Part shown: positions 20,338 to 32,230 of the stretch, in pieces
Layout: the number at the start of each line of letters is the position of its first letter
Numbering within the stretch: position 1 is the first letter of the stretch
NCBI GenBank assembly: GCA_026413965.1
Contig: JAOAJY010000006.1
Location: 1 to 34,367 of the forward strand
DNA length: 34,367 bases
Direction of reading: 5' to 3'
DNA from: Microcaldota archaeon
Lineage (GTDB): Archaea > Micrarchaeota > Micrarchaeia > Anstonellales > Anstonellaceae
Notes under the pieces: model-generated
Seen by the model: only the letters and a program-made list of their open reading frames with translations
The model's database searches: none
What the model was told of the DNA's origin: nothing
Position numbers and translations under genes: made by a program

Positions 20338-20526
20338 ATGGCAGCAATACAAGTTGGAAGGGTTTGCGTCAAGCTCAAAGGCAGGGATGCAGGGGAGAAA
20401 GTTGTGGTGACCAAAGTCATTGACGAAAACTTCGTGATGATACGCTCTCCTGCAAGGAAAAAGAGCCCTGAAAGAAGATGCGCAGTTGCCCATCTTGAGC
20501 CTACTGAAACCACAGTAAGCGCATGA
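20338..20526 (+). CDS. rpl14e: Ribosomal protein eL14
   Basis: 62 residues. The KOW-like core AAIQVGRVCVKLKGRDAGEKVVVTKVIDENFVMI and the ending LEPTETTV are typical of archaeal L14e. It is shorter than many (about 75-95). The ATG at 20338 follows GTGGTTTGC; an ATG at 20320 overlapping the cmk stop would add six residues. Confidence 0.9.
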   Translation: MAAIQVGRVCVKLKGRDAGEKVVVTKVIDENFVMIRSPARKKSPERRCAVAHLEPTETTVSA

Positions 20527-20558
20527 ATTGGGCAGTCTGCTTTTGGCAAAGTGTTTGG

Positions 20559-21440
20559 ATGCCTTCCCTAGGAGAGCTTCTGAATTGCTCATTTGTGATG
20601 GTGGACAAGCCGCAGGGGCCGTCTTCCCACGAGGTTGCGGCCTGGGTGCGCAAGCTTCTTGGAGCCAAAAAAACAGGCCATGCGGGCACTCTTGACCCAA
20701 ATGTCTCCGGGGTCCTGCCTGTTGCAGTGGGCAAAGCCACAAGGCTTCTTCGCTATATTGCCTCCCACGACAAAAAGTACGTCTGCCTTATGAGGACAGG
20801 CAAAGAGCTATCGGAAAAGGAGGTTGGCGAGCTTTTTTCCCGTTTCACAGGCGAGATAACCCAAACCCCGCCCAAGATGAGCGCGGTGAGAAAGGCGCCA
20901 AGGAAGAGGAAGGTTTATTATATTAAGCCTCTGGAAATAATGTCCAAGAAGGTGCTTTTCGAGGTGCACTGCGAAGCTGGAACCTACGTGCGTGTGCTGG
21001 TTTCGGATTTCGCGAAGCTCACATCTGGGGCATCCATGCTCGAGCTGCGGCGGACGTCGGTTGGTCGCATAGGCGAATCGGCGTGCCACACTCTGCAGCA
21101 GATAAGCGATGCCATGTGGCTTGCCAAAGAAAAGCGCGACGAGTCGGAAATCAAAAGAATCCTGATTCCGGCGGTTGAGGCGCTCTCCCTTCCAAGAATT
21201 GTGATGCGCGATTCTGCCGTTGAGGCAGTATGCGCAGGCTCGCCGCTTTATGCGCCGGGCGTCTCCTCGTTTGACGAGGGCATTTCGGATGGAGCGAAAG
21301 TCGCCCTCACCACGGAAAAAGGCGAGCTGGTCGGGGTTGGATCCGCCAGCCTTTCAGGAAAGGACGCGCCGCTGAAAGGTGCGGTCGCATTTCCGGAAAC
21401 AATCGTTATGGAAAGAGGCACGTACAAGAGGATGTGGTAA
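20559..21440 (+). CDS. cbf5: tRNA/rRNA pseudouridine synthase Cbf5
   Basis: About 293 residues. Catalytic subunit of the H/ACA guide RNP, making pseudouridine in rRNA; it can also make U55 in tRNA. VMVDKPQGPSSHEVAAWV and GHAGTLDPNVSGVLPVAVG, with catalytic Asp46, identify it. The C-terminal 75 residues form a PUA domain (RIVMRDSAVEAVCAGSPLYAPGV ...). It lacks much of the usual N-terminal extension. The ATG at 20559 follows AAGTGTTTGG; the ATG at 20523, overlapping the eL14 stop, would add 12 odd hydrophobic residues. Confidence 0.92.
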   Translation: MPSLGELLNCSFVMVDKPQGPSSHEVAAWVRKLLGAKKTGHAGTLDPNVSGVLPVAVGKATRLLRYIASHDKKYVCLMRTGKELSEKEVGELFSRFTGEITQTPPKMSAVRKAPRKRKVYYIKPLEIMSKKVLFEVHCEAGTYVRVLVSDFAKLTSGASMLELRRTSVGRIGESACHTLQQISDAMWLAKEKRDESEIKRILIPAVEALSLPRIVMRDSAVEAVCAGSPLYAPGVSSFDEGISDGAKVALTTEKGELVGVGSASLSGKDAPLKGAVAFPETIVMERGTYKRMW

Positions 21441-21489
21441 TTGGGAAGAATGCCGGGGTCGCATAATCTGGTAGTGCGCACGCCTGGAG

Positions 21490-21515
21490 CACATTGTTTG
21501 GATGGGTGGACAGCA
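21490..21515 (+). other. Intron 1 of tRNA-Ser (position 37/38)
   Basis: 26 nt at the canonical anticodon-loop site. Bulge AGC (21488-21490) and bulge CAA (21514-21516) flank a central helix CTGG/ACAG that has one G-A mismatch, so the bulge-helix-bulge is relaxed. Splicing gives loop CTGGAGA. Confidence 0.7.
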
Positions 21516-21544
21516 AGCGTGTGGTCGAAAGGCCGTATGGGTTC

Positions 21545-21585
21545 AGGTGCTTCCTGCCCTGCGCATGCAGAGCAGCATCGCCCAA
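21545..21585 (+). other. Intron 2 of tRNA-Ser (position 56/57, T-loop)
   Basis: 41 nt. Central helix GGGT (21539-21542) with GCCC (21580-21583); bulges TCA (21543-21545) and AAA (21584-21586); inner helix GGTGCT (21546-21551) with AGCATC (21574-21579), enclosing a hairpin CTGC-GCAT-GCAG. Cutting after the second base of each bulge gives T-loop TTCAAAT. Confidence 0.8.
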
Positions 21586-21641
21586 AAATCCCATCTCCGG
21601 CGCTTCCCACTTACGCTGATGCGCAAGCAGGAGGAAATTGC

Positions 21642-22325
21642 ATGGCTGAGAAAGGCAATCCGAAGCATGAGGAAAAAAGAGGGCCCGCAAAGAGGCCTTC
21701 GCAAGGCGTTCCCGCAAAACCGATGATATCCGAATCCGGAAAGGAAGTGCGCGGGGTGGTCCGCTTGGCAGGCAAAGACCTGCGCGGAAACCTTCCTATA
21801 ATGCGCGCCATAACCTCAATCCGCGGGATTGGAATCAACATGGGGCAGGTGATTTCGCAAGTGGCATACTCCCAGCTTGGGGTGAATGAAAAGACCATGC
21901 TTGGCGAGCTCTCTGAGCCACAGATAGAGAAATTGGAGCAGATTCTGTTCCACCCTGAGAATTTTGGGGTTCCAAGCAGGCTTTTCAACCGAAGGAAAGA
22001 CCTGCTCAGCGGAAAAGACATCCATGCGATAGGCTCTGATTTGGCCTACTTTGTCAAGCAGGACATAGACCATGAGAAGGATTCTGGCACATGGAGAGGC
22101 TTCAGGCATGCGTATGGGCAAAAAGTCAGAGGGCAGCGGACCAGAAGCACAGGCAGGACTGGAATGACAGTCGGTGTCCTGAGGAAATCTGTCCTTGCCA
22201 AGACAGGTGCAGCAGCCCAGCAGACTGGAGCTGCTGCGCAGCAGCAGGCAGCAAGCGCGAAAGCCGCCCAAAAGGCAGAAGCGCCCAAGCCCAAAGCCCC
22301 CAAGCCTGAGGAGGCAAAGAAGTGA
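21642..22325 (+). CDS. rps13: Ribosomal protein uS13 with N- and C-terminal extensions
   Basis: 227 residues, much longer than usual (about 150). The core is normal: VRGVVRLAGKDLRGNLPIMRAITSIRGIG and GTWRGFRHAYGQKVRGQRTRSTGRTG. It has about 30 extra basic/Pro residues before the core and a 40-residue Ala/Gln/Lys/Pro tail. The ATG at 21642 follows GGAGGAAATTGC, the best ribosome binding site in the area. The frame is open upstream to 21441 but that stretch is the tRNA-Ser gene. Confidence 0.93.
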   Translation: MAEKGNPKHEEKRGPAKRPSQGVPAKPMISESGKEVRGVVRLAGKDLRGNLPIMRAITSIRGIGINMGQVISQVAYSQLGVNEKTMLGELSEPQIEKLEQILFHPENFGVPSRLFNRRKDLLSGKDIHAIGSDLAYFVKQDIDHEKDSGTWRGFRHAYGQKVRGQRTRSTGRTGMTVGVLRKSVLAKTGAAAQQTGAAAQQQAASAKAAQKAEAPKPKAPKPEEAKK

Positions 22326-25640: not shown

Positions 25641-25745
25641 GGGGCCATGGGGTAACCTGGCTATCCTTCCAGCTTGGGGTGCTGGAGATTCGAGTGGAGC
25701 TGGCCGTTTGGTCTGTGCCCGAAAGTTCAAATCTCGATGGCCCCA
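25641..25745 (+). tRNA. tRNA-Pro(GGG) with an intron at the T-stem/T-loop border
   Basis: Acceptor stem GGGGCCA (25641-25647) with TGGCCCC (25738-25744), A73. D-stem GGGT/ATCC. Anticodon stem CCAGC (25669-25673) with GCTGG (25681-25685); loop TTGGGGT, anticodon GGG at 25676-25678. T-stem TCGAG (25690-25694) with CTCGA (25733-25737). A 31-nt intron (25695-25725) separates position 53 from 54. It lies between rpo10 and uS2. CCA is not encoded. Confidence 0.88.
25695..25725 (+). other. Intron of tRNA-Pro (position 53/54)
   Basis: 31 nt. Central helix TTCG (25689-25692) with CGAA (25720-25723), all Watson-Crick; bulges AGT (25693-25695) and AGT (25724-25726). The inner stem closes with GGCC-GTTT-GGTC and two single mismatches. 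Splicing gives T-loop TTCAAAT. Confidence 0.82.
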
Positions 25746-32144: not shown

Positions 32145-32230
32145 AGCCCCTGGCGAGAATCGAACTCGCTGCCTGTTGTTTTCCTGAAGCTGAATACAAG
32201 ACAACCGCTCTACCGATGAGCTACAGGGGC
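32145..32230 (-). tRNA. tRNA-Thr(TGT) with a 14-nt intron
   Basis: Read on the minus strand: acceptor stem GCCCCTG (32230-32224) with CAGGGGC (32152-32146), U73; D-stem GCTC/GAGC; anticodon stem GTTGT (32205-32201) with ACAAC (32179-32175); anticodon TGT at 32198-32196; T-arm GCGAG-TTCGATT-CTCGC, not interrupted. The intron is at 37/38 (32194-32181). It is convergent with nothing nearby and divergent from eL40, sharing the AT-rich gap. CCA is not encoded. Confidence 0.9.
32181..32194 (-). other. Intron of tRNA-Thr, 14 nt (position 37/38)
   Basis: Central helix CTTG (positions 32-35) with CAGG, one wobble pair; bulges TAT and AAA; loop of seven bases. Cutting after the second base of each bulge gives anticodon loop CTTGTAA. 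Confidence 0.8.

Follow-up and report, generated by a model that had tools for sequence, protein, structure and literature searches.

A tRNA-Ser(GGA) gene in a Micrarchaeota genome with introns at 37/38 and, in the T-loop, at 56/57

Introns at positions 53/54, 56/57 and 59/60 are already listed for archaeal tRNA genes (PMC4090602). The tRNA-Pro(UGG) gene of Pyrobaculum islandicum is interrupted at 25/26, 37/38 and 56/57 (Sugahara et al. 2007, reviewed in PMC4090602), while ARMAN-1 and ARMAN-2 have multi-intron tRNA genes and an epsilon2 EndA (PMC4033280; PDB 4fz2). In the tRNA-Ile(UAU) of Cyanidioschyzon merolae, introns are found in the D-, anticodon and T-arms, and the D and T introns are removed before the anticodon intron (PMC9602550). 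Here we describe a tRNA-Ser(GGA) gene split by two introns in a Micrarchaeota MAG, whose named relatives are Candidatus Micrarchaeota; the genome amounts to 770 kb and is 87% complete. The gene lies on contig C25, the 34,367-nt stretch of DNA that was analysed as a whole and is referred to below as the window. Its combination of 37/38 and 56/57 introns within one gene of an archaeal host is that of P. islandicum tRNA-Pro(UGG); however, P. islandicum is a crenarchaeon, the gene concerned is a tRNA-Pro with three introns, and the splicing enzyme of that group is heterotetrameric and not of the epsilon2 type. ARMAN-1 and ARMAN-2 are alike in being Micrarchaeota with this enzyme type and with introns at non-canonical positions. 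The C. merolae tRNA, too, has a BHB-type intron in the T-loop besides one in the anticodon loop, although in a eukaryote with a Sen-type enzyme. Placement at 56/57, also together with 37/38, is already known in archaea and the Ser(GGA) gene is a well-supported new example; for this part of the Micrarchaeota we found no report of T-arm introns in the literature searched. For Micrarchaeota a set of T-arm introns is thereby added, and a single syntenic locus supplies natural orthologues both with and without an intron.

The features of the locus are collected in Table 1. The mature tRNA-Ser(GGA) is 84 nt long, with acceptor strands GCCGGGG/CTCCGGC, a GGA anticodon, a long variable arm, the T-arm ATGGG-TTCAAAT-CCCAT and discriminator G; the CCA is not encoded. 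Neither ARAGORN nor Rfam detected the unspliced gene on the raw window. When both introns were excised in silico ARAGORN reported tRNA-Ser(gga), while excising one alone did not have this effect, and the canonical tRNA regained on removal is what introns of the archaeal endonuclease-spliced (BHB-type) class should leave. The ARAGORN call on the spliced form and the intron-minus relatives described below confirmed what the initial annotation had proposed, namely a tRNA-Ser(GGA) with introns at 37/38 and 56/57, down to coordinates, anticodon and positions.

Table 1. Positions in the window of the tRNA-Ser(GGA) gene, its intron 2 motif, its neighbours and other intron-containing tRNA genes
Feature	Position	Strand	Remarks
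tRNA-Ser(GGA) gene	21452-21602	+	151 nt
Exon 1	21452-21489	+	tRNA positions 1-37
Intron 1	21490-21515	+	26 nt, at 37/38
Exon 2	21516-21544	+	tRNA positions 38-56: 3' strand of anticodon stem, variable arm, T-stem 5' strand, TTC
Intron 2	21545-21585	+	41 nt, at 56/57, T-loop
Exon 3	21586-21602	+	tRNA positions 57-73: AAAT, T-stem 3' strand CCCAT, acceptor 3' strand, discriminator G
Central helix, 5' strand	21539-21542	+	GGGT, tRNA positions 51-54 (51-53 common with the T-stem)
Central helix, 3' strand	21580-21583	+	GCCC, intronic
5' bulge	21543-21545	+	TCA, contains the 5' splice site
3' bulge	21584-21586	+	AAA, contains the 3' splice site
Inner helix, 5' strand	21546-21551	+	GGTGCT
Inner helix, 3' strand	21574-21579	+	AGCATC
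T-stem, 3' strand	21590-21594	+	CCCAT; competes with GCCC for 51-53
cbf5 (TruB/dyskerin family)	20523-21440	+	conserved neighbour, ends 11 nt upstream of the tRNA
rps13	21642-22325	+	conserved neighbour, begins 39 nt downstream of the tRNA
tRNA-Pro(GGG) gene	25641-25745	+	intron at 53/54
tRNA-Pro(GGG) intron	25695-25725	+	31 nt, central helix TTCG/CGAA
tRNA-Thr(TGT) gene	32145-32230	-	intron at 37/38, about 14-15 nt

We consider it very probable that the tRNA-Ser(GGA) gene is functional and has two endonuclease-type introns, whose relaxed motifs would be cut by an epsilon2 EndA, and that its T-arm would exist in two states. A gene that standard finders miss could also be a tRNA pseudogene in decay, its T-loop interrupted by an insertion, with the tRNA-Ser(GGA) supplied by another gene. 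This we hold to be exceedingly improbable: the exons are almost identical throughout the genus, the acceptor stem is intact, as are the T-stem and the anticodon stem, the insertion retains a paired motif with covariation, and a search of the genome for a second Ser(GGA) gene found none, although in a MAG of this completeness another copy could have escaped.

In order to find orthologous tRNA-Ser(GGA) genes, the DNA upstream of rps13 was taken from relatives. About two dozen genomes had the same tRNA there, and in relatives its place is between cbf5 and rps13. The 56/57 intron occurs in all nine readable members of genus g1 as well as in three other genera (G013, G014 and G034), and among these orthologues GGGTTC is invariant and a GCC core is conserved. 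It is absent from several relatives at the family or order level (loci L042, L044, L046, L048, L052 and L053), where the sequence reads GTTCAAATC. The 37/38 intron is in turn lacking in three of the nine g1 members (G002, G004 and G006; loci L037, L039 and L041). Presence and absence at one junction between orthologues is again what BHB-type introns display, and since natural intron-minus orthologues exist for each of the two introns, both junctions are fixed comparatively. Owing to a shared A, sequence leaves 56/57 and 57/58 ambiguous, with an identical mature product. A real T-loop insertion might therefore have its junction at 57/58, or else be cut in a T-stem-closed form, the T-stem form being as stable as the BHB form in the window sequence. 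Yet a motif with four of four central pairs and six inner pairs arises only in the 56/57 register (57/58 gives one of four and none), and this register is maintained in the orthologues, which makes either variant very unlikely in our judgement.

With the junction at 56/57, intron 2 has all four pairs of a 4-bp central helix and 3-nt bulges at both junctions, as in BHB-type introns. It had initially been annotated as a textbook bulge-helix-bulge; the central helix, the two bulges and the 6-bp inner helix stood as described, while the outer helix is a single pair, T50-A58. Intron 2 does not, as a result, have the strict hBHBh' form with outer and inner helices, a subset that is not required for membership in the class, and its motif is best classed as HBh'-like and relaxed, not textbook. 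The G-A mismatch noted earlier in the central helix of intron 1 holds as well: CTGG/ACAG, read from the sequence, gives three of four pairs, with G35 opposite A.

After dinucleotide shuffling of intron 2, only 5 of 20,000 sequences equalled its four central and six inner pairs in the 56/57 register. We then evaluated pairing over 11 distinct orthologous introns, with shuffles and slid registers as controls. Paired cells made up 88.2%, compared to 78.0% in shuffled introns and 37-52% in slid registers. The covariation score of these introns was 0.380 versus 0.188 and was reached by none of 500 shuffles, a control that leaves sequence relatedness in. Five inner-helix pairs are altered on both sides. 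The exon side of the central helix is invariant, and the central helix is therefore unable to show covariation there; in the G006 intron, three of its four pairs are formed.

Bases 51-53 can pair either with the intron end (GCCC) or with 61-63 in the T-stem, and this supports the competition that had been proposed between the central helix of intron 2 and the T-stem. The further claim that the T-arm cannot fold until intron 2 is gone applies to the loop but not to the stem: before splicing the 5-bp T-stem can close over a 48-nt loop, whereas the correct 7-nt T-loop cannot form. In silico folding of the precursor with the window sequence gave a probability of 0.79 for the T-stem versus 0.18 for the central helix, and structures of the full precursor forced into either form were 0.5 kcal/mol apart, with the T-stem slightly better. 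Eight of the 12 orthologues favoured the central helix, with margins of 1.1 to 6.0 kcal/mol, and G004, G005 and G006 favoured the T-stem form, with margins of 2.0 to 3.1 kcal/mol. These calculations suggest that the precursor can adopt either fold at near-equal energy. The mutual exclusion stems from the 56/57 register and should be expected for any BHB intron at 56/57. In the 59/60 introns, which are commoner in the genome, the T-stem serves as outer helix and bases 54-57 as central helix, so that 59/60 corresponds, in the T-loop, to 37/38 in the anticodon loop; 56/57 is a register that forms at the expense of the T-stem.

Besides, the competition between the two folds could be more than a by-product of the intron's position, as a regulatory checkpoint that couples splicing to release of the rps13 mRNA from a presumed cbf5-tRNA-rps13 transcript. 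The 11-nt and 39-nt spacers, the conserved gene order and the near-equal energies of the folds are compatible with such an addition to the explanation given above. However, the same order is found in relatives without the intron, which shows that the arrangement can do without it, and the energy balance varies among orthologues; we regard the checkpoint as very unlikely. Cbf5 is a pseudouridine synthase, and by tblastn its gene was located at the same loci in 21 genomes, a number that includes the genome of the window. A functional link based on this adjacency was likewise considered and rejected, the order being conserved also in relatives that lack the T-loop intron.

A 441-aa reading frame of the genome contains an EndA domain; it matches ARMAN-2 EndA (4fz2) over its full length (E 6e-130, residues 52-441 against 5-387) and conserves in this alignment the catalytic-region motifs FRLY, HSKHVIH and RVAHSVKK. 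As a three-unit endonuclease aligning along the whole of the ARMAN-2 enzyme, the host EndA is, by sequence, of the epsilon2 type and ARMAN-2-like. Locus L032 (G000 C11:130301-130543) encodes a second, 179-aa EndA-like protein that seems to lack the catalytic His and Lys. Enzymes of the epsilon2 type are reported to be broad in specificity and to act on relaxed motifs at diverse positions of tRNAs (PMC6379350; PMC4033280; PMC12397907). We infer splicing itself, ligation, removal order and the dependent steps along the following lines. The epsilon2 EndA of the same genome would cut at both sites within relaxed motifs, of which the one at 37/38 is a mismatched BHB and the one at 56/57 is HBh'-like, and ligation of the exons would follow. 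GGG(51-53) paired with GCCC would be the cuttable form and GGG(51-53) paired with CCC(61-63) the T-stem, the T-arm acting as a two-state switch until splicing takes the competitor away. Formation of pseudouridine 55, 3' processing and CCA addition, as steps that need a correct T-loop, would come after removal of intron 2; elsewhere, a T-arm intron was shown to prevent Pus4 from forming pseudouridine 55 (PMC9602550). Such a two-state precursor at a syntenic locus is testable with one purified endonuclease.

At least ten tRNA genes of the genome have T-arm introns, in a survey where tRNA totals are minimum counts and all isotypes except Ser(GGA) and Pro(GGG) were assigned by eye. Most are at 59/60, in Gly(TCC), Gly(GCC), Lys(CTT), Lys(TTT), Arg(TCG), Ala(TGC) and Ala(GGC); Ser(GCT) has one at 58/59, Ser(GGA) at 56/57 and Pro(GGG) at 53/54. 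Additional 37/38 introns are apparent in Arg(TCG), Ala(TGC), Ala(GGC) and Lys(TTT). Spliced tRNA-Pro(GGG) is a clean 74-nt tRNA whose ends ARAGORN misplaces on the raw window. With several genes overlooked or mislabelled by ARAGORN and Rfam tRNA, the tRNA tallies of such genomes can be underestimates.

The mode by which T-arm introns transpose is described as unknown (PMC4090602). A repeat beginning CCCTAGGGGGCRCTA, with units of about 65-75 bp in short arrays, is present in five copies in the window's genome by pattern search, each 1 bp past a tRNA 3' end; its loci are L136, L138, L140, L142 and L144 (G000) and L130, L137, L143, L145 and L153 (G006). G006 has 14 copies; several follow tRNA genes, and several lie within 59/60 introns, which belong to tRNA-Gly genes and to one other tRNA. 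For tRNA-Gly(CCC), the T-loop intron is missing in G000, G003 and G005, short in G007 and G009, and filled with the repeat in G006. We considered whether the repeat CCCTAGGGGGC creates T-loop introns, which a gain in Gly(CCC) of G006 relative to the empty gene of G000 would illustrate, and rejected this because the introns of G007 and G009 there are repeat-free; the repeat probably inserts into pre-existing introns. The Ser(GGA) intron holds no copy of CCCTAGGGGGC. That a tRNA-targeting repeat (CCCTAGGGGGC), found also directly 3' of tRNA genes, uses the T-loop introns of the lineage as landing sites is a suggestion we make tentatively and with considerable doubt; if true, insertion of the repeat at the T-loop could cause T-arm introns to be gained, to grow and to move.

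Further intron arrangements were observed in the window and in relatives. The tRNA-Thr(TGT) gene of the window (Table 1) is mislabelled as tRNA-Ser(TGA) by ARAGORN with introns allowed. In G009 (L036/L065), tRNA-Ser(GGA) has introns at 56/57 and 59/60 in one T-loop, and the 59/60 central helix, TTCA/TGAA, arises only after removal of the 56/57 intron; splicing there is expected to be ordered, since the second motif needs the first intron out. Dependence of one intron's motif on prior removal of another has been described generally (PMC8450103). Two species of one genus differ in the site of the T-loop intron of tRNA-Lys(TTT), 56/57 in one and 59/60 in the other (L134 in G006 versus L029 in G000), hence intron position shifts within the genus. 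Finally, tRNA-Val genes at L142 and L136 (G000) and at L123 and L125 (G006) have an apparent D-arm intron (GGGCCCGTAGTCGA...CAATGGTTAAGACG), and the ARAGORN calls for them are incorrect.
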